From: Nakazawaea peltata | Lineage: Eukaryota > Ascomycota > Pichiomycetes > Alaninales > Pachysolenaceae | Reading direction: 5' to 3' | Assembly: GCA_001599355.1 (NCBI GenBank) | Contig: BCGQ01000004.1 | Span: 875,249-939,248 of the forward strand | Length of the DNA stretch: 64,000 nt | In this document: positions 1 to 64,000 of the stretch, one piece after another | Position numbering within the stretch: the first letter of the stretch is position 1 | Layout: every line of letters starts with the position of its first letter | Made by a program: the position numbers and the translations under genes | The notes under the pieces: model-generated | Databases searched by the model: none | What the model was told of the DNA's origin: nothing | What the model saw: only the letters and a program-made list of their open reading frames with translations

Positions 1-429
1 GAGTTGAATTTCCAATTGCAATCTCTTCTTGAAGAGGCTGTGAAGAAGTCAGTGGATGTGTCTATCCTAAATATTGGCGAGCTTAATGAGGAACAATTCC
101 TTTCACAGAGATCACAGCTGAAGGAGTTTGTAGGTGAATTCCTGGCCAACGTTCTTGGATTTACTGTTGAAATCGAAGAGTCAGAACACTCTCATGGTTT
201 CAAATTCTCTATTTCTAAACAAAATACCCCTCTTTGTCATATCAATTTCATCCATACTCATGCTCCATCTTCCCTGGAACAACTTGTCCGCGATTTTGCA
301 GAGCTCTACCAAACTACTAAGACAATAAGTATTGTCCATTTGCCAACTGGCTCATCCCCAAATGCATTATTGGATTTGGGATCCAAATTATCCAATTTCG
401 ATATCAAATCGATCTACAAAAATGTATAG
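1..429 (+). CDS. C-terminal part of a Vik1/Cik1-like kinesin-14 accessory protein (5' end outside window)
   Basis: The reading frame is open from the first base, so only the last 142 codons are present. The N-terminal part is outside the window. The visible part starts with a short helical stretch and then alternates strands and helices. Its end (KTISIVHLPT followed by LLDLGSKLSNF) resembles the last strand and helix of a kinesin motor fold (the ISP-x-N-x-ETL-x-SLRFA region) without a nucleotide site. That is what Vik1/Cik1, the catalytically dead Kar3 partners, carry. Position supports this: in S. cerevisiae VIK1 lies beside HFI1, BBP1 and CLN2 in the same relative orientation. Kar3-Vik1/Cik1 acts at spindle poles and microtubule minus ends. 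The call rests mainly on synteny plus a weak structural resemblance. Confidence 0.5.
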   Translation, partial: ELNFQLQSLLEEAVKKSVDVSILNIGELNEEQFLSQRSQLKEFVGEFLANVLGFTVEIEESEHSHGFKFSISKQNTPLCHINFIHTHAPSSLEQLVRDFAELYQTTKTISIVHLPTGSSPNALLDLGSKLSNFDIKSIYKNV

Positions 430-450
430 CAAGTCTTTATTAAAATACAA

Positions 451-1962
451 TTAGCTTGAAAGTAAGATGTCTTTGAGTAATGAACGGAGTTCTGATCTAG
501 TTCCGAATTCACTATTAGTTGACTCATTTGATAATGCAGTTGACAGGGTCAGGGTCAGAGACAGTGGCAGCGACAGACCTTGAGTTTGAGGCAGAGCTAC
601 TGGCAGAGTCAGCAGAGTCAGCACAGTCGACAGTTGACCTGACGTAGCTGGAGATTGAACTGAATTCTGTGTGGTAGATGATGGTGATCCAGAAGGAATA
701 ACACCATTCACTGGTTCCTCCTTCGCCTTGACAATCACTTCTTCCTTATCCCATTTCTCAGCCAGTTTCAAATCATATGTCAACTCATCATCTGTATCAT
801 CGTCATTTCTCAAAAGAGAATGAGATAACCTGAGAAGTGGACCTCCATAATCAATGATCAGTGGCTGCTGTTGAAGTGTATCAAACACATCTTCCAATGT
901 AACATGAATTTTCTTTTTCTTTCGAGGTCTTTCCACCGGTTTGGAAGAAGATCCCGTACTATTATTACGAGCCATGGTTTCATACAATTCATCAGAGGCA
1001 TATAAATGCTCTCTATAATTGACCACATCGACTATCGACTCCATAACAGATTTCAAATGTGTTTCTAAACCCAAGGACATGATTTTCATGACATTATCAT
1101 TGGCCCCGCCAGTTAATCCATGCTCTCTCATGATTTGGGTCATCTTAACCTTGAGCGTATCAAGCTCTGGCATCTCATAACTTTCCAGAGCATTCAAAGT
1201 CGATATACCTTGGACAATTTCATGGGTCCACAAAGCAGTATTATTGACTCTTGAATCATTCGATGGAGTCTGAGATGATGAATCACCTTTCACTCCATTC
1301 AGAGATACAGGAGATCCTTGTGATCCCTTAGAAATCAGCGGTACCTTAGGTAATAACTCTTGTCTAGTCATAACTAAAGAAGACGTCACCATTTGTTTCT
1401 TTCCTGAATCTCTCTGTAAATTCTTTAATCTACGTCTTTCTCTAGGAGGTAACAGCATAATATCCTTCTTGATCTTCTCATATTGAGAAGAAGTCTTTCT
1501 CTTTTGTTTCTTAGACAGAGGTCCACCAAATCCGACAGCCGATACTCCTGCTGTAGGACTATCTCTCAAGGCGTTAGCCAAATTCAGTAACAATAACTGA
1601 TTATGCATTCTAGTGGTCAATTTATCCTGTAATACAACAGCCAATTCATCACTTAACTCCTGCCTCGACAACTTCCCCAACAAAAACAAACATAATGCAC
1701 TTTGATATCGATCCCAATTCTCACCTAACCTCTGTTGGAATTCTACTACTAATTTTTCTAATTCGATTCTTCTACTATTACCCTCTGAGTTGGATCCGGC
1801 GCCCCCAGATGCTCCATTCGTACCTTTCACTATTCCATTAGCACTGCTATGCATTCTGGGTACCGATGACAGTACACTACTATTACCACTACTCAGTGGA
1901 GGCCGCCCAACTCTCCCATGAGATTCCAGCGCGCTCCCAGCGGTAGATACAGAAGGTGCCAT
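451..1962 (-). CDS. HFI1: SAGA complex adaptor subunit Hfi1/Ada1
   Basis: 503-residue nuclear protein. The SAGA-Tad1 region is recognisable around residues 69-135 (LEKLVVEFQQRLGENW, then a stretch with GKLSRQELSDEL and HNQLLLLNLANALRD). It is followed by basic tracts (SKKQKRK, RPRKKKKIH) that can serve as nuclear localisation signals, and by a histone-fold-like segment. Hfi1 scaffolds the SAGA coactivator and is needed for its integrity and TBP recruitment. The tail at about residues 430-480 carries a run of twelve CTG codons. Under the code inferred for this organism it is an Ala/Thr/Ser/Pro-rich linker and not a leucine-rich segment. Its 3' end faces the Vik1-like gene with only 21 bp between the stops. 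It is followed upstream by BBP1 on the same strand, as in S. cerevisiae. Confidence 0.88.
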   Translation of the reverse strand: MAPSVSTAGSALESHGRVGRPPLSSGNSSVLSSVPRMHSSANGIVKGTNGASGGAGSNSEGNSRRIELEKLVVEFQQRLGENWDRYQSALCLFLLGKLSRQELSDELAVVLQDKLTTRMHNQLLLLNLANALRDSPTAGVSAVGFGGPLSKKQKRKTSSQYEKIKKDIMLLPPRERRRLKNLQRDSGKKQMVTSSLVMTRQELLPKVPLISKGSQGSPVSLNGVKGDSSSQTPSNDSRVNNTALWTHEIVQGISTLNALESYEMPELDTLKVKMTQIMREHGLTGGANDNVMKIMSLGLETHLKSVMESIVDVVNYREHLYASDELYETMARNNSTGSSSKPVERPRKKKKIHVTLEDVFDTLQQQPLIIDYGGPLLRLSHSLLRNDDDTDDELTYDLKLAEKWDKEEVIVKAKEEPVNGVIPSGSPSSTTQNSVQSPATSGQLSTVLTLLTLPVALPQTQGLSLPLSLTLTLSTALSNESTNSEFGTRSELRSLLKDILLSS

Positions 1963-2179
1963 ACTATCAAAAACCCCAGTACTCTATAGAAACAGGTCCA
2001 AAAAACGGTGATTACTATTACCAATACCTCTTAAACTTCGATCAACGTTTCAAATCAATGGATTAGATCCGATCTCACCAGCTATCTCCCCTTGTTTCAA
2101 CCTCACTCTCCTTCCATCAGCGCTAAATTCGCTAAGTTTTTATTTTTTTTTCCAGGGAAAAACTTTTACGCGGGAAAGA

Positions 2180-2223
2180 TACATCGTTACACCAAACAGG
2201 ACAAAGTTACATCGTTACACCAA
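2180..2223. repeat. Two copies of a 16-bp direct repeat in the HFI1 promoter
   Basis: The 16-mer TACATCGTTACACCAA occurs at 2180-2195 and again at 2208-2223 (28 bp period). It lies in the 289-bp space between the HFI1 start (1962) and the BBP1 stop (2252), about 220-260 bp upstream of the HFI1 ATG. Next to it is ACGCGGGAAA (about 2168-2177), which resembles an Mbp1/E2F-type core. The repeat could be a paired factor site or a slippage duplication; the sequence alone does not decide. Confidence 0.5.
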
Positions 2224-2251
2224 TCAGAATCCGGGGTAAGTAATATTACAG

Positions 2252-3772
2252 TTATTTATTGGGGGAAGCGAAGATGGCGGAGAGATCAGAATCTAGACGA
2301 GAGCGGGCAGAGGTTCGAGGATTGGAACGCGAGTGAGAAATCGGACTGTTCTCATTATTAATAAGCCTCGAAGTGACCCTATAATCAGAATTGAGTCCCG
2401 TTAAATCTTCGTTATTATTGAGGATTGAAGAGATGTCTGAGAGTGAGAAATCGGCTGACGAGGTTGTCGGTTTCTTAGTGGGGGAGTTGAGAATTGAGGA
2501 TCTGAATGATGAAGGACGTAGTACTGAAACTGGGGTCTCATGGAATGACCGAGGTCTGGAATTTTCCGATGACGATTTATTTCTTAAAGCGTACCTTGAA
2601 GAACCAGATGATCTTTCTAATTCCAGGATTCGTTTCTCCTTTTCCTGTAACAATTCATGTTGTCTACGCAATTCCGATTGCAAATCGAATATCTCTCCTT
2701 TCAATTTGGTCGTTTGAGATTTGAAAGATTCATTCAGTTGTGTGATTTGTAATTCCAACATCTCATTCTTCCTTACAAGTACAGATTTGTCTTCTCCAGT
2801 GGAATGTTTCTTCAGACGTTCTAAATCTTTAGTTAAAAGTTCATTAGTCGTTTTAAGACGTAAGTTTTGATTCTTGTATTCCAAAATAGTGGTTTTCAAG
2901 TCATCTCTTTGCTCAGAAAGTCTCTTCATATCTTGCTGGAGTTCTATCACAAGTTTACGCTGTTGATCCAATTGAGATCGTGTGATTTCAAGCTCGCTTT
3001 TCAAGTTCTTTGGTTCCAAGGTATCTTTGGATTTCTGATGATCCTCGTATTTCTTCAATTCTTCTTTCAATGATCTATACTTGACAAGAAGTCTTCTAAA
3101 TCCTTCATAAACTTGCCTTGAAGTTTCCAATTCTTTTGCAAGTTCTTTCTTCAACTTGATAAATTCAGATGTTTGATCACGTCTATTTACCTTCTCATAT
3201 TGTTGAATAGTGAGTAATTCCTCTAAAAACCGATTGGTCTCTGAAGTTTGAGTTAAAAATTTGTTCAAAATCTCCCGATCATCCAACTGATCTTCATTAA
3301 TCTTATAATTTCTGGGTATGTATGGTGTCTCAAATCTATCCGGATACGTTCCTGGGAGTTGAGACTCATTAAGGTCCTTTGTGAGCTTTCTTATACTGTT
3401 CAATGTTTCCTCAATCTCTGGATCAGAATCGTGTCGGAGTGAGTCGGTGAAGTTGACTCTTTTAACAGCGCCGTCGTCGTCTGTGTCTCTTTGGGAGCCT
3501 AAAAACGATTGAAATGTCCTCATTGACTGATTTAATGGTTCATAATAAGTCGATACCTCTTCCTCTGGAGATTCAATCGAAGCGCCGTGAGGTACATACT
3601 CGGTATCCCCTCCTCCAAACAAACTGGTAAACGCTCTAGAAAAGATATTATTTTGGACGGGAGTTGGTGGGACCAACCGATCACTTGCCACCGAATGAAC
3701 GGTACTATTACGCGTCATATCGTCTCCTTCTCGTCCCAGACCGCTATTTCTTCTATATATTGGCCATACCAT
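2252..3772 (-). CDS. BBP1: Spindle pole body component Bbp1 (Mps2-binding)
   Basis: 506 residues. After a low-complexity N-terminus comes a conserved block with LPGTYPDRFETPYIPRNY, matching the IPGKFPSPLTKR region of S. cerevisiae Bbp1. It is followed by a long coiled coil (about residues 165-400). Within it, KKELAKELETSRQVYEGF and KYRSLKEELKKYE line up with the yeast AELVNELKKSKTLFENYY/KYKSLKKVL segment. The C-terminus is Ser/Arg-rich and disordered. Bbp1 binds Mps2 and Spc29 and helps insert the duplicated spindle pole body into the nuclear envelope. The neighbours HFI1 and the G1 cyclin repeat the S. cerevisiae HFI1-BBP1-CLN2 order and orientation, which supports orthology. The protein is about 120 residues longer than the S. 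cerevisiae one, mostly in the disordered ends. Confidence 0.78.
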   Translation of the reverse strand: MVWPIYRRNSGLGREGDDMTRNSTVHSVASDRLVPPTPVQNNIFSRAFTSLFGGGDTEYVPHGASIESPEEEVSTYYEPLNQSMRTFQSFLGSQRDTDDDGAVKRVNFTDSLRHDSDPEIEETLNSIRKLTKDLNESQLPGTYPDRFETPYIPRNYKINEDQLDDREILNKFLTQTSETNRFLEELLTIQQYEKVNRRDQTSEFIKLKKELAKELETSRQVYEGFRRLLVKYRSLKEELKKYEDHQKSKDTLEPKNLKSELEITRSQLDQQRKLVIELQQDMKRLSEQRDDLKTTILEYKNQNLRLKTTNELLTKDLERLKKHSTGEDKSVLVRKNEMLELQITQLNESFKSQTTKLKGEIFDLQSELRRQHELLQEKEKRILELERSSGSSRYALRNKSSSENSRPRSFHETPVSVLRPSSFRSSILNSPTKKPTTSSADFSLSDISSILNNNEDLTGLNSDYRVTSRLINNENSPISHSRSNPRTSARSRLDSDLSAIFASPNK

Positions 3773-10567: not shown

Positions 10568-10589
10568 TATGTATTAAATATACAGTCAA

Positions 10590-12386
10590 TCAACTTATAT
10601 CCGTCCTTGAAGCCACCGGCGATAAAATATGCTCACTTGTAGGTCTATCTAAAAGCAGTGCCTTCCTACTCAGCTCTATAATCAGATCCCAATCCGAGTT
10701 CATTACAAAGAATCCTTGTAAAACACTGGTGAAGAACAAGGCAATAACCATCCCAATCCACAAGCCGTACAATTCGTAACCCAAATTGAAACCAAGAACA
10801 AACCCAACTGGTAACAGAAGACAATAATAAGAGAAGAGGTTCAAATAACCCCCAATTTTTTGTCTTCCTTGGCCTCTGAGCAGTCCAGCAGTGATACAAT
10901 TCAAACAGTCATTGATTTGATATACAGCTCCAATGATAAGAACCTTGCCTGCTAAATCGATGACGTCGTCTTCAGACGAGAACAACAGGGCAATTCTGTA
11001 TCTGAAGGTCATGATGACAGTCGCATTGAATAATCCCATCACTACAGAACATAACAGGGCAGTTTTGGTAGCCGTTACAGCAGATGATTTGGAAGCAGAA
11101 CCAATATACCATGCGATTCTTGTAGAAGAAGCAATCCCAACGGCAAATGGAATCTGATAAAGTAAGACACATGTTGTTGAAACCACAGATTGCAGCAGTA
11201 AGGTGATAGTTCCGAACTTTGAGGCAGCAAATGTGATAATTTCAAAGGCAAGCCATTCCAGTTCTACCATTAATACACCTGGTAATGCTAAATCTAACAT
11301 GACAGACCAATTTCTGAACAGATCACGACCAAAACCACACCAACATTGATGACCATTAATGAAATAAATATACAGAATCAAGATGAGAGCCATAATCCAA
11401 TTGGTGATAGAGACGGCAATAGGAGCTCCGACGAAACCTAACCCAAATCTCTTGTCCCATACAAGGAAATAATTCAAGAATATGTTCAATGGAGCACATA
11501 AAATCAATACATAAGTGGACAGTTCGAAGATCCCCTGCAGTTGTAAGAAATGTTTACCATCTTCAAAGACAATGAAGGCAGGGAGACCAATAAATAACAC
11601 CTTCAAATAGCTGGAGGCCAAACGAGCCAACTCCAGTTCTCCAACTAAGAATAACAAGATGGACTCTGAAAACACCACCCATACGAGACCAATTGGAATC
11701 AATAATAAAAGTAAGAAGAAAGTACATCTAAGGAAATGAACTCCCACCATACGCAAATCACCACGACCATACGATTGAGGACATAAAGTATCCAACAGGG
11801 TTGCAGAGCCTTGAATTAACAGGTATGCAGACACATTCAGAGTCATCGACAGTAAAGATACGGCAGCTAATTCTGTGCTTCCCAACTGACCCACACTGAA
11901 AACTGAAGCAACAGTTAATGAGTATTGTAAGAGGAAAGTTATGACCAATGGGACACTATATTGGATCAATTTCTTTGTCTCAGCTTTATAAGTGGTTTCG
12001 AAATGTTCATTATCCAGCAGTCCCGGTTTCTTGTTATTACTGGTGAATGAATTACGACGACTTGCAATAAATGACAGGATCTCTCCCTCCGTTATAATGG
12101 CACCATAAGTTGGAGGAATCAGAGGGACTGTGGCCGACGAGTTGGTAGGGTACAATTGAGGTGAAAATGGAACTCCCTCCTCAATAGCCGAGTCATTCAT
12201 ACGACTATGTAACAGTTGAGTCTCCTCATGAGATTCCATTGATGAACGTCGATGAGACGAATATGATCTTAATAACTGAGTGGCATTTTCACTATGATCG
12301 AAGATAGATGATCTTCTAGCAGTAGTTGGAGATGACGAAAGCAACAGCTGATACAGCTGTGCCTGCTCTTCCTCGTCGACTCTCAT
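10590..12386 (-). CDS. ERC1: MATE-family transporter, Erc1/YDR338C type
   Basis: 598 residues from the ATG at 12386. A farther in-frame ATG at 12512 would add 42 residues, but it overlaps a CACGTG element and does not resemble the family. The N-terminal ~130 residues are Ser-rich and cytosolic. They are followed by twelve predicted membrane helices in two MATE repeats, with family signatures TELAAVSL, ATLLDTLCPQSYGRGD, FLQ-x-QGIFE and GLLRGQGRQKIGG. MATE proteins are H+ or Na+ coupled exporters of organic cations; S. cerevisiae Erc1 gives ethionine resistance. CTG codons in SL-CTG-SMT and LQ-CTG-QG align with alanine in YDR338C. Either of the two yeast MATE paralogues could be the closest relative, so the symbol is tentative. 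Confidence 0.8.
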   Translation of the reverse strand: MRVDEEEQAQLYQLLLSSSPTTARRSSIFDHSENATQLLRSYSSHRRSSMESHEETQLLHSRMNDSAIEEGVPFSPQLYPTNSSATVPLIPPTYGAIITEGEILSFIASRRNSFTSNNKKPGLLDNEHFETTYKAETKKLIQYSVPLVITFLLQYSLTVASVFSVGQLGSTELAAVSLLSMTLNVSAYLLIQGSATLLDTLCPQSYGRGDLRMVGVHFLRCTFFLLLLLIPIGLVWVVFSESILLFLVGELELARLASSYLKVLFIGLPAFIVFEDGKHFLQLQGIFELSTYVLILCAPLNIFLNYFLVWDKRFGLGFVGAPIAVSITNWIMALILILYIYFINGHQCWCGFGRDLFRNWSVMLDLALPGVLMVELEWLAFEIITFAASKFGTITLLLQSVVSTTCVLLYQIPFAVGIASSTRIAWYIGSASKSSAVTATKTALLCSVVMGLFNATVIMTFRYRIALLFSSEDDVIDLAGKVLIIGAVYQINDCLNCITAGLLRGQGRQKIGGYLNLFSYYCLLLPVGFVLGFNLGYELYGLWIGMVIALFFTSVLQGFFVMNSDWDLIIELSRKALLLDRPTSEHILSPVASRTDIS

Positions 12387-12512
12387 CTTTAATCTACAAC
12401 CTCCCCAACATTTCAACCCTTCAAAGTGACTTTTTAATACACCGCGCGTGGGAGGATCGAAAAGGCTGCGGAAGCAACCGAGCGATAAGCGAAAAAATTT
12501 GGACGTTATCAT

Positions 12513-12518
12513 CACGTG
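12513..12518. promoter_or_regulatory. CACGTG element upstream of the MATE gene
   Basis: TCACGTGAC at about 12512-12520 lies 127 bp upstream of the preferred MATE start and just after the RAD14 stop (12540, same strand). It fits a Cbf1/Pho4/Tye7-type bHLH site. Cbf1 regulates sulfur amino-acid genes in yeasts, which would suit an Erc1-like transporter; that link is inference. Confidence 0.4.
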
Positions 12519-12539
12519 ACTTATACAAGGAGGGATCGA

Positions 12540-15510: not shown

Positions 15511-17484
15511 ATGTCGGTTAAACATAGAAAAAACGCGAAAGTGGTCGAGACCGAACCTTCAGAAGGTTCTGCAATCACTTCTTCTTCAAAAACTTCGAAA
15601 GCCAGTGAAGTCATCGACACATTAGAGACTAAAGTTATAGAATTAGAACTGGAAACCCACTCAGATGACAAACACAAGAAAGAGAAGCACCTGAAGGCTG
15701 ATAAGAAATCATTCTGGAAATCTAGACGGTTAGTATTCATTATTGGTGCTGCCTTTGGTTTGGTTATTGCCGTTTACGCTGGTATAAGTCATTCGCAAAA
15801 CGACTTATTCCAGGACTTTGACTTCGATTCCTTGGTTACTTTTGACTTTGATACTGTTTCCAATTACTTTGAGGATTGGAAACTTCCTTCCAATTTACAA
15901 GGTTTGATTCAAAATGCTGCCCAAGGTGAACGTTTAAGAGATCCTACCGAGTCTTTCGCCGTAGGTAAATACTTGAAAGAAGAACAAAACATCACCGTCA
16001 AGTATCCTGTAATTATGGTTCCTGGTGTTATTAGTACTGGTTTAGAGTCTTGGTCGTTAGAAGGTACCGACGATTGCCCATCGGAACCTCATTTCAGAAA
16101 GAGATTGTGGGGTTCTTTCTATATGATGAGAACCATGGTCTTAGATAAGGCATGTTGGTTGAAACATGTCATGTTAGACCCGGCTACCGGATTGGACCCT
16201 CCTGGAATTCAATTGAGGGCCCTGCAAGGTTTTGAGCTGCTGGATTTCTTCATGGCAGGTTACTGGATCTGGAACAAAATCTTACAGAACTTGGCTGTCA
16301 TCGGTTACAATCCTAACAACATGTTGAGTGCTTCTTATGATTGGAGATTGTCTTATTTAGATTTAGAACGTAGAGATGCGTATTTCAGTAAATTAAAGTT
16401 CCAGATTGAACTCACTAAACAACAAACCGGCGAGAAGAGTGTTCTCTTTGGTCATTCTATGGGGTCTCAAGTTATCTATTACTTCATGAAATGGGTAGAA
16501 GCTGAGGGAGAACATTACGGTAATGGTGGACCAAGCTGGGTCAACGATCATATTGCTCTGTTTGTAGATATTTCAGGATCCATGTTAGGTACTCCTAAAC
16601 TGATTCCTCTGTTGTTGTCTGGAGAGATGAAGGACACTGTCCAATTGAATCTGCTTCTGATTCAAGGTTTAGAGAAGTTCTTCTCTCGTAGAGAAAGAGT
16701 CGATATGTTGAGAAGTTTCGGAGGTATTGCCAGTATGATTCCAAAAGGTGGAGATTTATTATGGGGAGATTTCTCTGGTGCTCCAGATGATAATATACAA
16801 AACACCACTAACTACGACAACCAAACTTATGGTAAATTCATCAGATTCGACAACAAGGTTGGAACATTCTCCTCCAAAGATCTTACCGTTGCCGAATCGA
16901 TCAATTTCTTATTAGATCAATCTGAGCCTTGGTTCAAAGATAGAACTTTGGAGCATTATTCGTTTGGTATTACCACCGATCCCGAACAGTTAGCTTTAAA
17001 TAATCATGACCACAACAAATGGGTCAACCCATTGGAAGCAGCTTTACCTAACCTGCCAGATTTAAAGATATATTGTTTCTACGGTATTGGAAACCCAACA
17101 GAAAGAGCTTATCACTACAGAGAGGAAGTGGACAAAGAGATCACGAAATTGAACGTGACTATCCAGTCACAAGGAGAACAACCAGTCTTATTATCAGATG
17201 GAGATGGAACAGTATCCTTAATGACGCACGCCATGTGTCATAAATGGAAAGAAGAAGGAACCGTCTACAACCCTGGAGGTGCCCAAGTCAAAGTAGTGGA
17301 AATCAAACATGAGCCTGATAGATTCGATATTAGAGGTGGGCTGAAGACAGCAGAACATGTCGATATTTTAGGATCACTGGAGTTAAACGAATTGCTCTTA
17401 AAAGTCAGTGCAGGTCATGGTGATGATATCGAAGAAAGAATCATCAGTGGTTTGGATGACATAGTTAAGAACCTCAATTTCTAA
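15511..17484 (+). CDS. LRO1: Phospholipid:diacylglycerol acyltransferase Lro1
   Basis: 657 residues against 661 in S. cerevisiae. A basic, acidic-flanked cytosolic N-terminus precedes one transmembrane helix (about 72-92), and a large ER-luminal alpha/beta hydrolase of the LCAT family follows. The lid/oxyanion region has VPGVISTGLESW. The nucleophile elbow is GHSMGS (Ser316), the acid lies in DGDGTVS (Asp565) and the His in AEHVD (His616). The enzyme moves an acyl chain from phospholipid to diacylglycerol to make triacylglycerol for lipid droplets. CTG codons at 16222, 16600, 16609, 17341 and 17377 all align with alanine in S. cerevisiae Lro1 (for example RA-A-QGFE, PK-A-VP-A-LISGE, GS-A-ELN), which is key evidence for CUG-Ala decoding. 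Confidence 0.97.
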   Translation: MSVKHRKNAKVVETEPSEGSAITSSSKTSKASEVIDTLETKVIELELETHSDDKHKKEKHLKADKKSFWKSRRLVFIIGAAFGLVIAVYAGISHSQNDLFQDFDFDSLVTFDFDTVSNYFEDWKLPSNLQGLIQNAAQGERLRDPTESFAVGKYLKEEQNITVKYPVIMVPGVISTGLESWSLEGTDDCPSEPHFRKRLWGSFYMMRTMVLDKACWLKHVMLDPATGLDPPGIQLRALQGFELLDFFMAGYWIWNKILQNLAVIGYNPNNMLSASYDWRLSYLDLERRDAYFSKLKFQIELTKQQTGEKSVLFGHSMGSQVIYYFMKWVEAEGEHYGNGGPSWVNDHIALFVDISGSMLGTPKLIPLLLSGEMKDTVQLNLLLIQGLEKFFSRRERVDMLRSFGGIASMIPKGGDLLWGDFSGAPDDNIQNTTNYDNQTYGKFIRFDNKVGTFSSKDLTVAESINFLLDQSEPWFKDRTLEHYSFGITTDPEQLALNNHDHNKWVNPLEAALPNLPDLKIYCFYGIGNPTERAYHYREEVDKEITKLNVTIQSQGEQPVLLSDGDGTVSLMTHAMCHKWKEEGTVYNPGGAQVKVVEIKHEPDRFDIRGGLKTAEHVDILGSLELNELLLKVSAGHGDDIEERIISGLDDIVKNLNF

Positions 17485-18995: not shown

Positions 18996-19102
18996 TACTA
19001 CGATATCTTTGCATCCAAAACGAAAAATCTTGCACCTAAAACTGGTGTATTCTATATAATTTGTATCACCACTAATAATAATTTATGTTAATGAGATGTT
19101 TT

Positions 19103-20411: not shown

Positions 20412-20873
20412 ATGGTGAGTATGGTGTTATGAGATATGATAGAGCGATACTAACTGAGTTAGGTGCTACCGATAATAATAGGAGTTGGGGTGACGGTGGG
20501 GTTACTCACGTTGAAATCTGGAATCAAGACGATGAGTAGATATAGAGCATTGACGCCGCTGATGATATTCGCATTAAATGGGATAAAACCACAGGTACAA
20601 AGAGATAGAGATCCAAAATTTAATGATCTAGCATTGAAATTTCGGAATTATCCAGGAGGGTTCCAACAAAAGATGACCGAGAATGAACTGCTAATGATCC
20701 TTGATATTAATCAAGATGAGATTGTACATTTGACACCTGAACTTCTCAAGAAGAAGCATCGTAAATGTATGTTAATTAATCATCCTGACAAAGGGGGTAG
20801 TCCATATATGCTGATGAAGATCAATCAGGCGAAGGATATATTATCTAGTAGTTATCTCTTTCAGAAGAGGTAA
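20412..20873 (+). CDS. MDJ2: Mitochondrial J-protein Mdj2 (intron directly after the ATG)
   Basis: Exon 1 is only the ATG (20412-20414) and exon 2 is 20463-20873; the product is 137 residues. Spliced, the protein starts MVLPIIIGVGVTVGLLTLKSG, essentially the S. cerevisiae Mdj2 N-terminus (MVLPIIIGLGVTMVALSVKSG), which fixes the splice. There is one membrane helix at the N-terminus, then YPGGFQQKMTENE and a C-terminal J-domain with KKKHRKCMLINHPDKGGSPYM (HPD motif intact). It is an inner-membrane cochaperone of the import motor Hsp70 (Ssc1), related to Pam18. Two CTG codons (ENE-CTG-LMI, PYM-CTG-MK) align with alanine in S. cerevisiae. Confidence 0.93.
20415..20462 (+). other. MDJ2 intron (48 nt)
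   Basis: Donor GTGAGT at 20415, TACTAAC at 20448-20454 and acceptor TAG ending at 20462, with the branch A nine nt from the end. It sits between ATG and the second codon. Its length is a multiple of three, but retention gives a stop after five further codons (TGA), so unspliced RNA cannot make the protein. Confidence 0.93.
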
Positions 20874-23188: not shown

Positions 23189-24648
<1,460 letters not shown>

Positions 24649-24705: not shown

Positions 24706-25253
24706 TCATCCACTTCCCTTGGTGTTCAAAATCAATGCAATAATCATTCCGTACAACCCCAATACTTCGGCAAAAATCAAAATCAACACGATACCTACAA
24801 ATAATCTTGGTTGGTGCATGAATTGACGAACACCTTCATCTCCTACGATACCAATAGCATAACCTGAGGACAAACAGGCGAATCCAACACTTAAACCACA
24901 AGCTAAATGCATGAATCCATGGAAAAGAGAGTAATTGTCATCTGGGGTCAAATCTCCAGCGATTAACACACTAACAACTAAGCCGTAAACAGATAAAATA
25001 CCACTCATGACGACAGGAATTAAGGATCTCATGATCAATTCAGGTTTGAAGGTACCAATACCAGCAATACCAATACCGGATTTCAGGGTTCCAATGGCAG
25101 CTCCACCACAACTCAAGATCATGGCAGAAGCACAACCAGCAAACCCAAGAAATGGTGCAAAGTTTGGAGCGTACTCGCTTCCAAGTTCGGACCTAAAACA
25201 GGTGTTAGTATATCAATCCATCGGTAGGTGGTCTATAATGGGGGTACATACAT
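24706..25253 (-). CDS. VMA11: V-ATPase proteolipid subunit c' (Vma11); intron splits the start codon
   Basis: Exon 1 contributes only AT (25253-25252) and exon 2 is 25192-24706, giving 162 residues. The joined start AT|G TCC gives [20 protein letters not shown], matching the N-termini of Vma11 and Vma3. Four transmembrane helices carry [26 protein letters not shown] and the last helix [13 protein letters not shown] with the essential proton-carrying Glu. It ends LILNTKGSG, as in Vma11 (LNTRGSE) and unlike Vma3. It is part of the c-ring of vacuolar H+-ATPase. CTG at 25086-25084 (GT-CTG-KSG) falls on the alanine of GTAKSG. Divergent from NSL1, convergent with RVB2. Confidence 0.95.
25193..25251 (-). 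other. VMA11 intron (59 nt) inside the ATG
   Basis: On the minus strand the donor GTATGT begins at 25251, TACTAAC is at 25210-25204 and the acceptor TTTTAG ends at 25193, with the branch A 12 nt from the end. The G of the unspliced ATG is the first base of the intron; after splicing, the G of the start codon comes from exon 2. Confidence 0.92.
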
Positions 25254-33172: not shown

Positions 33173-33835
33173 ATGAAGGGATTTATTTACTTATTGGGAA
33201 GTTTATACCTTATCTTCCAGCTGTTTGACTGGCTGTTCTATAATTGGTTGCCTAGCAACTATGTGTTCGACAAAGAGAAGTTACAAGAAATCTCTCAAAA
33301 AGTGATCTCGGAACACGCAGGTAAAGAACAAAATGTGACGGCTCTCTTTGAGGATCTCGCTTTGGAATTGAAGAAAGAATATGGAGATTTGGTCAATGAC
33401 TTCAACACTGATGACTGGTTCTATAACAATGCTGGTGGTGCCATGGGAACTATGTTCATTTTACATGCTTCGATCTCTGAGTACGTGATCTTTTTCGGAA
33501 CTGCCGTAGGTACCGAGGGACACAGTGGTATTCATTTTGCTGATGATTATTTCACCATTTTACAAGGAAAGCAATATGCAGCTGGACCATCTTCATTCGA
33601 ACCAGAAGTTTATTTGCCAGGAGATCAACATCATATGATTAAGGGATACTCTAAACAATATGCTATGCCATCCGAATCGTTCCTGTTGGAATTAGCTCAA
33701 GGATGGATTCCACTGATGTTACCATTTGGCTTACTTGACTGTATCTTTTCGACTTGGGATTTCCCAACTTTCCTGAGAACTGCTTACTTTACCGGGCTTG
33801 ATATGGGTAAGAACTTGTTAAAGGGTAAGTTCTAA
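33173..33835 (+). CDS. ERG2: C-8 sterol isomerase Erg2
   Basis: 220 residues (S. cerevisiae 222), start [12 protein letters not shown]. One N-terminal membrane helix precedes the sigma-1/ERG2 cupin-like fold, with near-invariant blocks [40 protein letters not shown], the acidic ligand residue in EVYLPGD, and LELAQGWIP near the membrane-facing end. It converts fecosterol to episterol in the ER during ergosterol synthesis. CTG at 33683 (SF-CTG-LELAQ) matches the alanine of SFALELAQ in yeast. It is divergent from MED9, sharing a 212-bp promoter with a clear TATA box and SRE-like elements. Confidence 0.97.
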
Positions 33836-34572: not shown

Positions 34573-37380
34573 ATGGTAGACTCATCTGTACCTTTGGTCA
34601 ATGGAACTTCGTTCTGTACATTATACGCCCATGACCAGGTGTCGTTTGATAATGCCTTAAAATTTTATACTGAATTGATTGGATTGGAGTCGAAGACCGA
34701 GTCACCGGACTCGCTCTTGTTATATGAGACCAAGTCTTTGGATACGACCTCGTTGAAATTGAAAATCGACTCCTCAAGAGCAATCACCGCCGACCGTATT
34801 AGCAAAAATATCAAGCATTTACAACTGGTTGCTAAGCTTCAAGATTGGAGATCGATTCAATACACTTTGAGTTTCAAGTCGCTGAATTTGCTGACTCTTA
34901 TTGCCAAATTGAAATCCTCCGGCAATCTTTACCAAGTCACTCCTAACGAATTGACCCCTATTGAGGTCTACACTATCGACCCATTAGGGACATTGATTGG
35001 ATTTACCGCCCATGACAATGCCTTTGGAGTTAACCTGTTGAACCGTGGTACTTTGTTGGACCAATTAGACGATCTGAAGGCAATTGAAGCTACTGCTGAC
35101 CCGGAAGTATCCGTCTCGGAACACCTTACCTCCACTGAGAAGAGAAACATCGCCGTGATGACCTCCGGTGGTGATGCCCCAGGTATGAACGCCAACGTCA
35201 GAGCCATCGTCAGAACCGCCATCTATAGAGGCTGTAGACTGTTTGCTATTTATGAAGGTTACGAAGGTTTGGTCAGTGGTGGTGATTATATCAAGGAGAT
35301 GCACTGGCAAGACGTTAGAGGTTGGCTTGTAGAAGGTGGTACCAACATTGGAACTCTGAGAAACAAGGAGTTTAGAACATGGGAAGGTAGATTAAAAGGT
35401 TGTAAGAACTTGATTGTAGCTGGTATCGATGCTTTGATTGTATGTGGAGGTGATGGTTCGTTGACTGGAGCTGATTTATTCAGAAATGACTGGCCTGCTT
35501 TGATCAAGGAGTTGCTTGACAAGGGAGAGATCACTGAGCAACAATACAAGAAACATCAACATTTGAATATTTGTGGTACTGTTGGGTCAATTGATAATGA
35601 TATGTCTTCTACCGATGCCACTATTGGTGCCTACTCGTCTTTGGAGAGAATTTGTCAGGCCATTGATTACATTGATGCTACAGCCAATTCTCATTCTAGA
35701 CTGTTCGTTGTCGAAGTCATGGGAAGACATTGTGGTTGGTTAGCTTTAATGGCAGGTATTCTGACCAGTGCTGATTACATTTTGATTCCAGAGAAGCCTG
35801 CCTCTAATCAGGAATGGCAAGATCAGATGTGCAAAATTGTCTCTCAACATAGATCTAAGGGTAAGAGAAAGACTATTGTTATTGTAGCTGAAGGAGCCAT
35901 TACTAGTGACTTGAAGCCGATCACTTCTAAAGAGGTCAAAGATGTTCTTGTAGACAGATTAGGTCTTGATACTAGAATCACTACTTTGGGTCATGTCCAA
36001 AGAGGAGGTACTGCTGTTGCTTACGATAGAATCTTGGCTACTTTACAAGGTGTCGAGCTGGTTAAAGCTGTATTGGAATGTACTCCTGAGACTCCTTCTC
36101 CTATGATTGCTATTGATGAGAATAAGATTGTAAGACGTGGATTAATGGATGCTGTTAAGTTGACTAAATCTGTACTGGAGCTGATCGAAAGTAAAGATTT
36201 CGCTAAAGCTATGAGTCTTAGAGATTCGGAATTTGTCGAGCATTTGAAGAATTTCATCGCTATAAACTCTGCTAACCATAATGAGCCAACATTACCATTG
36301 GAAAAACGTAAGAGAATCGCCATTATTAACGTTGGAGCCCCAGCTGGAGGAATGAATAGTGCTGTTTATTCCATGGCCACCTATTGTATGTCTCGTGGTC
36401 ATATTCCTTACCTGATTCACAATGGTTTCAGTGGATTGGCCAGACATGAAAGTGTACGTACTATGGACTGGTTAGAAATTGAAGGTTGGAATTCTCTTGG
36501 TGGATCCGAAATCGGTACTAATAGAACTTTACCTGAAGAGGCCGATATTGGTTTGATTGCCTATTACTTCCAGAAGTACCAATTCGATGGTTTAATCATC
36601 GTTGGTGGATTCGAACTGTTTGTTTCATTGGAACAATTACAAAGACTGCGTTCTTCTTTCCCTCTGTTCAGAATTCCAATGGTTTTGATTCCTGCTACCA
36701 TCTCCAATAATGTCCCAGGAACTGAGTATTCTCTTGGAAGTGATACCTGTTTGAACTCCTTGATGAACTACTGTGATGTGGTCAAGCAGAGTGCTGCTGC
36801 TACTAGAGATAGAGTATTTGTGGTTGAAGTTCAAGGTGGAAACTCCGGTTACATTGCAACTTACCTGCAATTGGTCAGTGGACTGCAACTGTCATATGTT
36901 CCAGAGGAAGGAATCTCGCTCAAACAATTGGAAATGGATATCAATTCTTTGAGAGAATCGTTTGCTCATGATGAAGGTATCAGTAAATCTGGTAAGTTGC
37001 TTATCAAATCTGAGAATCTGTCCAAGGTGATGACCTCTGAAGTTATTTCTGAGATCATTCTTGAGGAAGCCAATGGTAGATTTGACTCTAAGACTGCCAT
37101 TCCAGGTCATGTTCAACAAGGTGGTATTCCATCTCCAATGGACAGAACTCGTGCAGCCAGATTCACTGTCAAGGCTGTAGAATTCATTGAGGAAAATCCA
37201 TTCCAACATGGCAAGCATACTGCTGTCGTCTTGGGTATTGCCAGTAACCGTTTGCAATTCACTCCAGTGAGGGAATTGTATGACTTCCAGACATTGTTGA
37301 AGAAGAGAATGAGAAAGGAGGTTTTCTGGAATGATGTTAGAGATATTGCTGATATTCTTGTTGGAAGAACTAAGATCTAG
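34573..37380 (+). CDS. PFK2: 6-phosphofructokinase beta subunit Pfk2
   Basis: 935 residues (S. cerevisiae Pfk2 959). The ATG gives MVDSSVPLVNGTSF, matching yeast VNGTSYCTV. An N-terminal glyoxalase-like domain (about 1-185) typical of fungal PFK precedes two tandem PFK halves. The catalytic half has MTSGGDAPGMNANVRA, GGDGS and GSIDNDM (Asp base). The regulatory half has GAPAGGMNSAVY and the fructose-2,6-bisphosphate-type site. It phosphorylates fructose-6-phosphate in glycolysis, with Pfk1 in a hetero-octamer. CTG codons at 35761, 36058, 36616 and 36664, plus two in V-CTG-E-CTG-IES near 36175, all align with alanine in yeast Pfk2. Confidence 0.96.
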   Translation: MVDSSVPLVNGTSFCTLYAHDQVSFDNALKFYTELIGLESKTESPDSLLLYETKSLDTTSLKLKIDSSRAITADRISKNIKHLQLVAKLQDWRSIQYTLSFKSLNLLTLIAKLKSSGNLYQVTPNELTPIEVYTIDPLGTLIGFTAHDNAFGVNLLNRGTLLDQLDDLKAIEATADPEVSVSEHLTSTEKRNIAVMTSGGDAPGMNANVRAIVRTAIYRGCRLFAIYEGYEGLVSGGDYIKEMHWQDVRGWLVEGGTNIGTLRNKEFRTWEGRLKGCKNLIVAGIDALIVCGGDGSLTGADLFRNDWPALIKELLDKGEITEQQYKKHQHLNICGTVGSIDNDMSSTDATIGAYSSLERICQAIDYIDATANSHSRLFVVEVMGRHCGWLALMAGILTSADYILIPEKPASNQEWQDQMCKIVSQHRSKGKRKTIVIVAEGAITSDLKPITSKEVKDVLVDRLGLDTRITTLGHVQRGGTAVAYDRILATLQGVELVKAVLECTPETPSPMIAIDENKIVRRGLMDAVKLTKSVLELIESKDFAKAMSLRDSEFVEHLKNFIAINSANHNEPTLPLEKRKRIAIINVGAPAGGMNSAVYSMATYCMSRGHIPYLIHNGFSGLARHESVRTMDWLEIEGWNSLGGSEIGTNRTLPEEADIGLIAYYFQKYQFDGLIIVGGFELFVSLEQLQRLRSSFPLFRIPMVLIPATISNNVPGTEYSLGSDTCLNSLMNYCDVVKQSAAATRDRVFVVEVQGGNSGYIATYLQLVSGLQLSYVPEEGISLKQLEMDINSLRESFAHDEGISKSGKLLIKSENLSKVMTSEVISEIILEEANGRFDSKTAIPGHVQQGGIPSPMDRTRAARFTVKAVEFIEENPFQHGKHTAVVLGIASNRLQFTPVRELYDFQTLLKKRMRKEVFWNDVRDIADILVGRTKI

Positions 37381-50237: not shown

Positions 50238-50436
50238 ACACCAATACCATACCAACTCCATCTCAATACCTTCGTAGAAATAGTCGTGTACCACTCAAAA
50301 TTTAAGCGAAGCCGGAAACGGCGTCGCATATTTCCCAATCGGGAATTCAACGAAAAATCTCCCAACGGTCAAATTCTCACTTAAAAATCTCTTCAACAGG
50401 GGTAATCCACAGGGTGTAGAACCATACGAAATCATC

Positions 50437-51528: not shown

Positions 51529-51554
51529 ACTACATATTTAAGTAATATACACAT

Positions 51555-59574: not shown

Positions 59575-62109
59575 ATGAAATTCTCACATTCCTTGCAGTT
59601 CAACGCCGTCACCGAATGGTCCACGAAGTACATTCTGTACTCGAATTTGAAGAAGCAGATTTACCAGTTACAAAGGGACAATCTCGCCAAAACTTCCACT
59701 TATTATGACACCGAGAACCAGCCGTTGACATCGGTGGGATCTCAGGGTGGAGATTTCGCCGACCCTGTCGAGGTCTTCACTGAGAGTTTGGATAAAGAAT
59801 TGGCCAAGATTGATGAATTTTATACCGACAAAGAGAGGGAGATTTATCAGGAGTTTGAGAAGTTGATCGATGATATCGACCTGTTCGAGCGTAATTATAT
59901 GCATAACAACAATGGTGGCTCGCATTTCAGTGACACTTATAGTTTATCGTCGTCCGATGACTTGTCCTCGAGAAATTCCATACGGAAATTGTTGTCTAAT
60001 ATCTACTCGATTAAGAGTCTGAATGGTGTTGCTAATGAGATTATAGAGGAAGGAGATGTATCAGCTGTTTCTGCTGTCAATGATACCAAGCTGTCGAATC
60101 ATTTCGGTGGGTCTACTGTGGCTGACACAAGTTATATGACTCAGACTGCTGATCTGGATACTTCTCTGATGCCTGAGTCGGAGGATGATCATTTGGAACT
60201 GCATAAAACGTCTGAACATGCTTCGGATGTCTTGTTTGATGAGACTGATTTCAGTCTCAATTTCCTCTCGAAGATCAAATTCTCCACTCAGAAAAGGTTG
60301 GTCGAGTTGTTCGTCCGGTTGAGTGAATTGAAGAGTTTTATCGAGTTGAATAAGATCGGATTCGCTAAGATTTTGAAGAAGTTTGATAAGAGTCTTAATA
60401 CCTCGATCAAGAAGGGTTATTTGGGTAAGTTACCGCTGGAATCATATACATTTCTGCCCGAGACTCTTGATTTGTTGAACAAAAAGATCGATCTGATCAC
60501 TAAGATTTACTCGTTCGTATGTAATTTGAGTGTAGAGGCCTCGAAGAACGAGTTGAGATCCCATTTGAGAGAGCATATCGTATGGGAGAGAAACACCGTT
60601 TGGAGAGATATGATTGGTATTGAGAGGAAATCTCAGCTGCTGAATCCTGATAGAAAGACAGCTGAGGTATTGCAAGAGGTGTCGAATTGGGAGGTGTTTG
60701 TTTCGTTTGTAACTCACCAAAAGTTCATCCAATTTTGGGCCATTTTCGCCTGTTTTGTCTTGTTATTGTTTGTAAGTCCATTCCATGATAGAACTCAGCA
60801 GAGTTGTTTCGCTATATTGATATTTTCGTCATTATTGTGGGCTACTGAGACCATTCCATTGTTCATTACATCATTATTGGTTCCTCTTTTGATTGTGACA
60901 TTAAATGTGATTAAAGACAGTGATGGGAAGGTTCTTAACTCTGAAGAAACTTCTAAATTCATCTTATCAGCTATGTGGAATTCTGTTATTATGTTATTAT
61001 TGGGAGGTTTCACATTGGCTGCTCTGTTATCCAAGTATAACATTGCAAAGATCTTATCTACATGGATTTTATCTAAGGCCGGATTGAATCCTAATGTTAT
61101 TTTATTGACTGTTATGTTTGTGGCACTTTTCACTTCCATGTGGGTATCAAATGTGGCTCTGCCAGTGTTATGTTACTCTATTATCCAACCATTATTGAGA
61201 ACGTTGCCAAAGAACTCCAATTTCAGTAAATCTTTGATATTGGGTATTGCCTTACTGTCGAACATTGGAGGTATGGCATCCCCAATTCTGTCTCCACAGA
61301 ATATCATTGCTATTGAAAGTATGGACCCTGTTCCTTCATGGATTGAATGGTTCATTATTTCATTCCCAGTTTGTGGAGTCAGTTTGGTCATGATCTGGAT
61401 CTTCCTATTGATCACTTTCAAGCCAGAATCCAAGATTAGTATTGTCTCCATCCGTAAAATCGATGAGAGATTTACTATTGTTCAATGGTATGTTTCAGTA
61501 GTATCTGCACTTACTATCATTCTCTGGTGCTTTGCATCCAAATTGTCGGGTATCTTTGGTGAGATGGGTGTCATTGCAATCTTGCCGATCTTCCTGTTTT
61601 ATGCCACAGGTTTACTTCAGACCGAAGATGTCAATAATTATCCTTGGAATATCGTGTTATTGGCTATGGGAGGTCTTTCATTGGGTAAACTGGTCACTTC
61701 TTCCGGTTTATTGGCTACAATCGCTTCTGGAATTCAAAGTCAGATCTCTCATTTGTCCATTTATGAGATCATCTTGGTCTTTGGATTACTTATTTTGGTC
61801 ATGGCTACATTCATTTCCCATACTGTAGCAGCTTTGATCATTATCCCATTGATTAAAGAGATTGGTGAGTCATTACCAGATCCACACCCAAGATTAATGG
61901 TTATGTGTGCTGCCTTATTATGCTCGGCAGCAATGGGATTACCAACTTCTGGATTTCCTAATGTTACAGCCATTTGTATGGTGGATGAAGTTGGAACTCC
62001 ATACTTGACCGTGGGTACTTTTATTACTAGAGGTGTACCAAGTTCGTTGATTGCTTATGGAGTGATCGTTACAGTGGGATATCTTGTGATGAGACTCATT
62101 AGTTTTTAG
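59575..62109 (+). CDS. PHO91: SPX-domain low-affinity phosphate transporter (Pho87/Pho90/Pho91 type)
   Basis: 844 residues from the ATG giving MKFSHSLQFNAVTEW. The SPX domain (1 to about 330) includes WSTKYILYSNLKKQIYQLQ, LNKIGFAKILKKFDKSLNT (inositol-pyrophosphate-binding Lys cluster) and HIVWERNTVWRDM. It is followed by about 12 membrane helices of the Na+/dicarboxylate-sulfate (DASS) family with LLWATETIPLFITSLL, GGFTLAA, MWVSNVA and MGLPTSGFPNVTAI. CTG at 61159, 61255, 61288 and 61690, and in LAA-CTG-LSKY, align with alanines of S. cerevisiae Pho91. The neighbour URK1 and the divergent unknown gene match the PHO91 locus, so Pho91 (vacuolar phosphate export) is preferred over Pho87/90. Confidence 0.88.
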   Translation: MKFSHSLQFNAVTEWSTKYILYSNLKKQIYQLQRDNLAKTSTYYDTENQPLTSVGSQGGDFADPVEVFTESLDKELAKIDEFYTDKEREIYQEFEKLIDDIDLFERNYMHNNNGGSHFSDTYSLSSSDDLSSRNSIRKLLSNIYSIKSLNGVANEIIEEGDVSAVSAVNDTKLSNHFGGSTVADTSYMTQTADLDTSLMPESEDDHLELHKTSEHASDVLFDETDFSLNFLSKIKFSTQKRLVELFVRLSELKSFIELNKIGFAKILKKFDKSLNTSIKKGYLGKLPLESYTFLPETLDLLNKKIDLITKIYSFVCNLSVEASKNELRSHLREHIVWERNTVWRDMIGIERKSQLLNPDRKTAEVLQEVSNWEVFVSFVTHQKFIQFWAIFACFVLLLFVSPFHDRTQQSCFAILIFSSLLWATETIPLFITSLLVPLLIVTLNVIKDSDGKVLNSEETSKFILSAMWNSVIMLLLGGFTLAALLSKYNIAKILSTWILSKAGLNPNVILLTVMFVALFTSMWVSNVALPVLCYSIIQPLLRTLPKNSNFSKSLILGIALLSNIGGMASPILSPQNIIAIESMDPVPSWIEWFIISFPVCGVSLVMIWIFLLITFKPESKISIVSIRKIDERFTIVQWYVSVVSALTIILWCFASKLSGIFGEMGVIAILPIFLFYATGLLQTEDVNNYPWNIVLLAMGGLSLGKLVTSSGLLATIASGIQSQISHLSIYEIILVFGLLILVMATFISHTVAALIIIPLIKEIGESLPDPHPRLMVMCAALLCSAAMGLPTSGFPNVTAICMVDEVGTPYLTVGTFITRGVPSSLIAYGVIVTVGYLVMRLISF

Positions 62110-62205
62110 GATATATAACTAATATATTTACAGTGATTGGTGTAGATGTTTGGTGTTATGATGTAGGTGGTGTCATGATGTATGCGGGTCGTGAGATCGA
62201 GATGT

Positions 62206-62211
62206 CACGTG
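62206..62211. promoter_or_regulatory. CACGTG within a 10-bp palindrome between PHO91-like and URK1
   Basis: GTCACGTGAC at 62204-62213 sits in the 105-bp space between two converging genes, touching the URK1 stop. It is a perfect Cbf1-type site (RTCACRTG). At a 3' end it may bind Cbf1 without acting on either promoter, or act in an antisense transcript. Confidence 0.35.
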
Positions 62212-62214
62212 ACC

Positions 62215-63753
62215 TCAATTGGTACCAAAGTAAACATTATCGATGAATCTAGTTCTAAACCACCAGTCTTGATCATGATGATGAGTTTCCTCTTTCTTCA
62301 AGCTTCCCATCAACCCAGCAACAATTTTAACCGTAGGAAAAGCGTTAAGAATTCTTCTGGCTCCAATCTCGGTAACCAAGTAACTTACAACGACGATATT
62401 TTCAAGTTTGATGCCGTGGTCGAGGAGGATTTGAGTGGCCATAATCAGCAGAGCTCCACTGATGATCTGAGCATCGAAAATAAAGATCTTGGAGTTGTCT
62501 TGGTAGATGGAAGGAGGAAGAGATTCGGTGTGTAATTGGGGTTCACCGGTCATTGAGTCACTTTGAATCAATAACTTTCCAATGGTGACATCCGGCAAGG
62601 TTCTCATAATGGAGTTCATGAAACAGTCACCGGATCTGATGATATTGATCAGTACGATTGGTCCTTGCAGTCTGAGCCCGTCAACTTTATGTCCCAGGGG
62701 GGTTTCTACCGAACAAGGTTGGTAGTCTATTAAATCCAAGGCTGAGGTGATCAACGAGGTAGCTAAACGATCGAAATAGAAGACAAACTCGTCTCTTTTG
62801 GTCTTTCTGTTGAGTAAGATGGTGTTAATTGCTTTGAGTTGGTTGTTTAAGGCAAGTGTTTTGACCCGGGACTCGTCTAAAGGTTTGAAACCCAAGCTTG
62901 CCAAATGTCTTAAATGCTCTCTGGATTTATTGACCAACTGTTTCTGGAGATGCTTGATGATCATATTAATACCGATATGGTTATCTGAGCCTCTTGGGAC
63001 CACTAAATCGGCCTTCTCCATGGTGCGTTTGACGTAGCGATCAGAGTTAGGCTTGACGAACAAATTCCATTGCTTCAATACACCCTCGAAATCACGACCT
63101 CTTTCAATGATGTCTCTATTCAATCTTCTGGCGAGACAAATATCCAAATCAGTGTCTACATAGATCTTTGTATCCATCAAATCGACCAATTTCTGGGGGA
63201 AAAGAGAGTAGATACCTTCGATGATGATCACGTTGGCTCCGTAGACAGTGTAAGTGGCTCCAGTTCTGTTGTGAATGGTGAATGAGTAGATTGGGATCTC
63301 GGTTTTCTTACCTTCCTTCAACGACTTGACACACTCGTAGACCAAATCGAAATCGATCGACAGCGGCTCGTCGAAATCGTATTCGTTTCTGAACAGTTTG
63401 GCTTTGGCAGCCTCGTCTAATGGACGGTAAAAGTTGTCCATGGAGATCAACACAGTCCAAGGTTGGTTAATTTCTTGGATGATTTTGGAGGCCACAGAGG
63501 TTTTACCCGACCCTGAGCAACCAGCAACCCCAATAATGTACGGTTCAGACCACGGTGGGGTGTAATGCAGTTCATTTGAGTCGTCGAGATTGATCAGAGA
63601 CTCGCTGTGGAAGAAAGAATCCGAATTTTGGGGCGTGATTCGTGTACCTTTGCCGTGGTGGATAGAAAAGCTGGCTCTTTTGAGGTCCAGGGATGATGAG
63701 ACGGCTGAGGACATCGCAGACGGAGTCTCAGAAGGAGTGATTGCCGACGACAT
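62215..63753 (-). CDS. URK1: Uridine/cytidine kinase Urk1
   Basis: 512 residues (S. cerevisiae 501). Ser-rich N-terminus, then the kinase domain with P-loop GVAGCSGSGKTS (75-86), SMDNFYRPL, EYDFDEPLSIDFDL and RRLNRDIIERGRD. The C-terminal half (about 300-512) is a UPRTase-like domain (YFDRLATSLITSAL, IVLINIIRSGDCF, FDAQIISGA). Two consecutive CTG codons after SGA would read SGAAAIMA under CUG-Ala, closer to the family's (S/T)G-x-AI-A pattern. It phosphorylates uridine and cytidine in pyrimidine salvage. It converges with the PHO91-like gene, an adjacency conserved in S. cerevisiae. Confidence 0.95.
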   Translation of the reverse strand: MSSAITPSETPSAMSSAVSSSLDLKRASFSIHHGKGTRITPQNSDSFFHSESLINLDDSNELHYTPPWSEPYIIGVAGCSGSGKTSVASKIIQEINQPWTVLISMDNFYRPLDEAAKAKLFRNEYDFDEPLSIDFDLVYECVKSLKEGKKTEIPIYSFTIHNRTGATYTVYGANVIIIEGIYSLFPQKLVDLMDTKIYVDTDLDICLARRLNRDIIERGRDFEGVLKQWNLFVKPNSDRYVKRTMEKADLVVPRGSDNHIGINMIIKHLQKQLVNKSREHLRHLASLGFKPLDESRVKTLALNNQLKAINTILLNRKTKRDEFVFYFDRLATSLITSALDLIDYQPCSVETPLGHKVDGLRLQGPIVLINIIRSGDCFMNSIMRTLPDVTIGKLLIQSDSMTGEPQLHTESLPPSIYQDNSKIFIFDAQIISGALLIMATQILLDHGIKLENIVVVSYLVTEIGARRILNAFPTVKIVAGLMGSLKKEETHHHDQDWWFRTRFIDNVYFGTN

Positions 63754-64000
63754 GGTTGGTTTGAAGGGTGGTGGTCAAGGTGCGGCATCGTGAAGAGGAA
63801 GATTTTTTTGAGATTGAATTTTTTCCTTCGGAGACAGCAGGCGATGGGCGCAGGCGATGGGGAAACTGAAGGGGGGACTGAAGGGAGAAACTGAAGGGGA
63901 GAGAGGGAAATTGGAGGGGTTCAATGGGGGAGGAATCGGTAAACAAGGATGGGATTAGTGGGCTCATGAGGTAGGTAGGAGGGGAGCGGGAGCAGGGATG
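63754..64000. promoter_or_regulatory. URK1 promoter, truncated by window end
   Basis: 247 bp, G-rich on the + strand, with a GCAGGCGATGG duplication (about 63838-63860) and three ACTGAAGGG-type copies (63866-63900). No coding sequence is visible before the window ends. Confidence 0.35.

Follow-up and report, generated by a model that had tools for sequence, protein, structure and literature searches.

Evidence that CTG codons are read as alanine in nuclear DNA of Nakazawaea peltata

Which amino acid is placed at CTG codons in the nuclear genes of Nakazawaea peltata? The question is raised by a stretch of 64,000 nucleotides (nt) of contig BCGQ01000004.1 (G000:C4:875249-939248), hereafter called the window, in which an initial annotation, made from the letters alone, had seen CTG fall again and again on conserved alanine. 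Sense-to-sense changes of the nuclear code are very rare. The assembly has a size of 11,631,020 bases in 11 contigs and a G+C content of about 41%. Gene content in the window is that of an ordinary budding yeast, with 30 open reading frames (ORFs) and no tRNA genes. The results reported here lead to the view, held with a probability of roughly 97%, that the window is nuclear DNA of a CUG-Ala yeast (Alaninales, Pachysolenaceae), in which CTG would be decoded as alanine (NCBI table 26) by a tRNA with a CAG anticodon and alanine identity. This view was derived by sequence comparison.

The main evidence comes from conserved alignment columns. The CTG codons of PFK2, LRO1 and a MATE-family transporter gene were masked as X, and each of the three products was aligned with 120 listed homologues. 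These three of the 30 window ORFs contain 59 CTG codons; scoring was applied to the 55 that lie in columns of 60 or more sequences. The rows P0001, P0002, P0121, P0122 and P0241, the closest relatives, were excluded when columns were counted, as the code used for their own translation is uncertain. Over the 55 sites alanine came out as the best residue for CTG, 127 natural-log units above serine. Another 53 codons had four scored sites or more in the three genes, and each of them gave its standard residue as the best. Columns conserved to at least 80% numbered 1056 in the three genes, comprising 94 of alanine, 110 of leucine and 59 of serine among others. CTG occupied 27 of the alanine columns and none of the leucine or serine columns, and all 27 CTG sites on columns of this class were on alanine (13 in PFK2, eight in LRO1 and six in the MATE gene). 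For 27 conserved columns picked at random among the 1056, the probability that all would be alanine is about 10^-30. Of the conserved leucine columns, 106 were carried by TTG, TTA, CTT and CTC. Where conservation was at least 95%, CTG again stood on alanine at 13 of 13 sites. The initial annotation had counted about thirty CTG sites on conserved alanine and none on an invariant leucine, in good agreement with the 27 sites at the 80% cut-off and with 29 alanine sites and one leucine site (a column with 76% leucine) at 70%.

A CAG-anticodon tRNA of alanine identity had been named in the initial annotation as the gene to look for. One gene with this anticodon was found in the assembly, by ARAGORN and by a pattern search (Table 1). 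The tRNA is 73 nt long, intronless and of class I, with a variable loop of 5 nt. It has a G3:U70 pair and A73, both of which it shares with the genome's own alanine tRNAs, together with a U6.U67 mismatch, and it carries G37 beside the anticodon. Leucine and serine tRNAs are of class II, as are those that were read in this genome. On the basis of G3:U70 and A73 the CAG tRNA is predicted to have alanine identity. The label given to it by ARAGORN is leucine, which we take to follow from the anticodon alone. Scored against the Rfam tRNA family at a sensitive setting, the gene reached 50.9 bits (gathering score 29), and when it was compared with its own genome by BLAST only the gene itself matched. 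One full-length gene for alanyl-tRNA synthetase (AlaRS) was identified (719 bits, 975 amino acids), in addition to a partial match that was weak and did not reach the cut-off. AlaRS would recognize the acceptor stem of the CAG tRNA, not the anticodon, and would charge it with alanine, while the ancestral leucine tRNA(CAG) would have been lost, leaving CUG unread as leucine. A passage in PMC5951914 counts AlaRS among the two synthetases for which no particular bases of the anticodon are required, which makes such a mechanism straightforward.

Pfam scores under three codes were computed for ten of the 30 proteins. The ten, among them PFK2, LRO1 and the MATE protein, had been selected for their strong matches and numerous CTG codons. 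The sum of 14 family scores was 3700.6 bits with CTG as alanine, 3663.8 bits as serine and 3593.6 bits as leucine, a preference for alanine of 37 bits over serine and 107 bits over leucine. A further test, for which no outside reference is needed, used the paralogues PFK1 (on another contig) and PFK2 of the same genome. At the 34 aligned positions with CTG in either gene, the partner had alanine in 12, CTG in four, serine in five, leucine in two and another residue in 11. Both tests bear on whether CUG might stand for serine, as it does in the Ser1 and Ser2 clades. That serine ranked second in the column test and first in three of the 14 Pfam families can be ascribed to the frequent replacement of alanine by serine. 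With all 59 conserved serine columns free of CTG, alanine ahead by the log units and Pfam bits given above, and a CAG tRNA that lacks the long variable arm and is not of the serine type, a serine code is very improbable.

Several observations weigh against the alanine reading and are collected here. The choice of genes was favorable to it, as LRO1 and MATE were picked after they had shown the largest Pfam gain from CTG as alanine; PFK2 had been picked first, prior to the Pfam scoring, and alone has 13 of 13 conserved CTG sites on alanine. At a 70% cut-off, CTG falls on 29 alanine columns and on one column each of leucine (12122), serine (11852) and cysteine (11798), and at 50% on 33 alanine, two leucine, two serine and four other columns. 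The column of CTG 12122, in the MATE gene, is 76% leucine and that of CTG 35074 is 50% leucine; those of 11852 and 11798 are 79% serine and 78% cysteine, respectively. CTG 61594 of a PHO91-like gene corresponds to leucine in PHO90. Counted by Pfam family, alanine scored best in nine of 14, serine in three and leucine in one, with a three-way tie in one. The CAG tRNA was missed by the Rfam fast filter at the gathering threshold, and it was not listed by the genome-wide tRNA search, in which 63 of 608 candidates were scored. The best named match of the MATE protein was from Komagataella pastoris (62% identity over 76% of the length); its 120 listed homologues include none from Pachysolen. With four patterns, neither a second CAG tRNA nor one of the leucine type was found among the matches listed; these searches were not exhaustive and could miss odd or intron-split genes.

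We read the CTG codons on columns of mainly leucine, serine, cysteine or other residues as the outcome of ordinary substitution where conservation is lower. CTG 12122 is possibly a relic or a tolerated leucine-to-alanine site. The closest metagenome relative of the MATE protein likewise has leucine at this position. The standard code, under which CUG is leucine and the alanine pattern a product of chance or selective recall, draws on this site and on the leucine of PHO90 at 61594. It is close to negligible as an explanation: all 110 conserved leucine columns are without CTG and 106 of them use TTG, TTA, CTT or CTC, the Pfam sum is 107 bits below that for alanine, and a leucine-type CAG tRNA was not found by the pattern searches.

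One of the CAG-tRNA patterns matched 104 places, of which 100 were listed, and its reversed-pattern control matched 123; the class II CAG pattern gave nine matches and its reversed-pattern control also nine. Six leucine-type matches were examined closely, and the remaining listed ones were assessed by eye. A class II candidate at G000:C6:28385 was rejected, since it coincides with the beginning of a protein-coding frame and ARAGORN, at a loosened threshold, drew only spurious structures there. ARAGORN found no tRNA at the places with CAG and a following purine, C1:1106808, C2:287174, C4:300473 and C6:269439, nor at C5:462588, a candidate from another CAG pattern. In the tRNA-Leu(UAG) gene at L007:1490-1697 (minus strand), the structure drawn by ARAGORN includes an intron of 120 nt, a long one for a tRNA.

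These searches also bear on ambiguous decoding, in which CUG would be read mostly as alanine but to an appreciable extent as leucine, either by mischarging or through a hidden leucine CAG tRNA. G37 of the CAG tRNA is in line with it, as a passage in PMC5951914 holds G37 responsible for 3% leucine mischarging in Candida albicans, and de novo peptide sequencing of Pachysolen tannophilus once suggested 10% leucine, as mentioned in PMC8645108. The same part of PMC8645108, however, gives more than 99% alanine for P. tannophilus and regards the 10% as mistaken. Together with the placement of CTG on strictly conserved alanine (13 of 13 columns at 95% or above), where frequent leucine would hurt, and with the lack of a leucine CAG tRNA among the pattern matches, this makes ambiguous decoding improbable, and decoding as alanine is retained.

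Other genes in the window were compared with solved relatives. All 18 coordinates named in the initial annotation (in LRO1, PFK2, RVB2, the PHO91-like gene, ERG2 and VMA11) are in-frame CTG codons. The five in LRO1 lie on columns with an alanine majority (68-93% alanine among 118 sequences), the four in PFK2 on columns with 69-100% alanine, and the three in RVB2 correspond to alanine in the solved yeast RVB2. The one site in VMA11 also holds, being the alanine of the motif AIGTAKSG. Two sites each had been claimed for MDJ2 and MATE. In the MDJ2-like protein two were located in this analysis and both are alanine in TIM14; the MATE gene has more than was claimed, as stated above. The claim for the PHO91-like gene stood in part: three of its four sites are alanine in PHO90, its only close solved relative, and the fourth, 61288, is serine there. 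The six transporter-domain CTG codons compared comprise three on alanine, one on serine, one on valine (61024) and the one on leucine already mentioned. Two claims could not be confirmed. The ERG2 site is methionine in the distant animal sigma-1 receptor, an uninformative comparison, and the sites in the cyclin gene face leucine and serine in a remote cyclin A (38 bits). The features are listed in Table 1.

Table 1. Positions of the genes, codons and tRNA discussed in the text. Positions are those of the window, except for the tRNA.
Feature	Position	Strand	Remarks
PFK2, 6-phosphofructokinase beta	34573..37380	+	20 in-frame CTG, 13 on columns with at least 80% alanine
PFK2, examples of CTG on columns with at least 80% alanine	35356, 35701, 35761, 36058, 36175, 36181, 36412, 36616, 36883, 37018		
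LRO1, phospholipid:diacylglycerol acyltransferase	15511..17484	+	13 CTG
LRO1, CTG on columns with at least 80% alanine	16222, 16237, 16240, 16609, 16657, 17053, 17341, 17377		n = 8
MATE-family transporter, ERC1-like	10590..12512	-	26 CTG
MATE, CTG on columns with at least 80% alanine	11840, 11522, 11261, 11198, 11195, 10817		n = 6
tRNA with CAG anticodon	G000:C4:81426-81498 (L006:1470-1542)		ARAGORN and pattern search
RVB2	23365..24648	+	Six CTG; in S. cerevisiae RVB2 five are alanine and one (24388) is aspartate
VMA11, V-ATPase c'	24709..25191 (searched stretch of reading frame)	-	CTG 25086-25084 is the alanine of AIGTAKSG
MDJ2/TIM14-like J-domain protein	20562..20870	+	CTG 20688 and 20811 are alanine in TIM14
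PHO90/PHO91-like phosphate transporter	59575..62109	+	18 CTG, six in the transporter domain compared with PHO90
ERG2	33173..33835	+	CTG 33683; only distant solved homologues

Among 120 listed homologues each, the best named matches of PFK2 and LRO1 were from P. tannophilus, with 76% and 73% identity, respectively. At these values the source is a relative of P. tannophilus and not the same species. Judged from the two proteins, its position fits within the Pachysolen/Nakazawaea/Peterozyma clade, for which the NCBI taxonomy uses the order name Alaninales. The initial annotation had guessed at Nakazawaea or Peterozyma in preference to P. tannophilus, a guess that fits the G+C content of the assembly and the moderate identity of PFK2 to that of P. 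tannophilus. The closest relatives of PFK2 and LRO1, P0001 and P0121, are metagenome proteins. At conserved alanine columns where the window has CTG, P0001 has leucine in five of 13 and P0121 in two of eight, and the MATE relative P0241 in none of six. P0001 and P0121 may be proteins of CUG-Ala yeasts that were translated with the standard table. Two further PFK2 entries stand under the basidiomycete Cerrena zonata (P0094; 77% identity over 80% of the length) and under an Asgard archaeon metagenome-assembled genome (P0067). Both look like yeast contamination of public records.

The body of the CAG tRNA was compared with other tRNAs of the genome by structural alignment outside the anticodon and the D loop. 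Identity was 44 of 62 positions both with Val(UAC) and with Ala(AGC). The D arm (10 of 11 positions vs eight of 11 with Ala) and the anticodon arm (nine of 14 vs six of 14) are nearer to Val(UAC), the acceptor stem (11 of 15 vs nine of 15 with Val), the variable loop (five of five vs four of five) and the T arm (14 of 17 vs 12 of 17) nearer to Ala(AGC). Over the full length, 48 of 73 positions are identical with tRNA-Val(CAC) of S. cerevisiae and 49 of 73 with the genome's own Ala(AGC). The D-arm pattern GTGTAGNGG..ATCAC was found at six places in the genome and at none in the control. Its carriers are the CAG tRNA, four glutamine tRNAs and Val(UAC); no alanine tRNA is among them. Since the identity with Val(UAC) and Ala(AGC) is tied, no origin of the tRNA is claimed.

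An unlikely proposal is that the CAG tRNA arose from a CAC/UAC-type valine tRNA, or as a mosaic with one, by one or two changes in the anticodon and the gain of G3:U70, through which it would have acquired alanine identity. Such an origin, which we regard as doubtful, would contrast with published accounts, which imply an alanine source gene with all three anticodon bases changed. If it were true, the codon would have been captured by way of a change of identity in the acceptor stem, and the apparent absence of tRNA-Val(CAC) would be its trace. Three patterns applied to the whole genome gave no tRNA-Val(CAC), which is no proof of absence. One of these patterns had 27 matches (control 32), of which 25 were judged by eye; the sequences of the other two were examined and contained no tRNA, as was the case for two regions from another pattern. 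The valine tRNAs found comprise five places with Val(AAC) and one Val(UAC), and GTG is used in the window at 10 per 1000 codons. The Val(UAC) gene (L075:66-139) has an odd acceptor stem with U3:G70, U5:G68 and U6.U67, and in the structural alignment a T at the discriminator position.

CTG makes up 351 of the 15,824 codons in the 30 window ORFs, or 22.2 per 1000, and 247 of 11,170 codons (22.1 per 1000) in 20 further ORFs elsewhere in the genome. The GCN codons of the window ORFs total 758, with 373 GCT, 220 GCC, 132 GCA and 33 GCG. Counted as alanine, CTG accounts for about 32% of the alanine codons and is the second commonest of them, and GCG is nearly unused. A passage in PMC5951914 on code-changed clades in general describes CUG as relatively rare and as tending to stay off well-conserved sites; in N. 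peltata, by contrast, CTG is frequent and stands on highly conserved columns. Translation of this genome with the standard table would make about 2% of all residues wrong. The genome bears on how a code change proceeds in two respects, namely the re-use of a captured codon, which now supplies about a third of the alanine codons including those at invariant sites, and the question whether the tRNA that captured it derives from alanine tRNA or from valine tRNA.

According to a passage of PMC5951914, the CUG-Ala code came to light in P. tannophilus in 2016, and the Ala clade also includes Nakazawaea and Peterozyma. A passage of PMC8645108 likewise gives alanine as the translation of CUG for Pachysolen and Nakazawaea species, and the codon screen of 462 yeast species in PMC8629427 is described there as matching the known distribution in 453. 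The finding made here is correct and is already published for exactly this clade; what is new is at most the CTG usage and the body of the tRNA. This case confirms the code cleanly and independently, with CUG-Ala decoding favored over leucine and serine by column statistics, Pfam scores, paralogues within the genome and the CAG tRNA. N. peltata resembles P. tannophilus and the other CUG-Ala yeasts (table 26) in that CTG stands on conserved alanine, a CAG tRNA of predicted alanine identity is present, a leucine tRNA(CAG) was not found by the patterns used, and two of three proteins have Pachysolen as the nearest named relative. It differs in that the body of its tRNA is as similar to valine as to alanine tRNAs. 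With CUG-Ser1 (the C. albicans clade) it has in common the reassignment of the same codon in a budding yeast and G37 beside the anticodon, but the codon is read here as alanine instead of serine, and the tRNA is of class I without a long variable arm. In CUG-Ser2 (Ascoidea/Saccharomycopsis) the same codon is concerned, and serine and leucine CAG tRNA genes occur side by side, whereas in N. peltata the only CAG tRNA found is of the alanine type.

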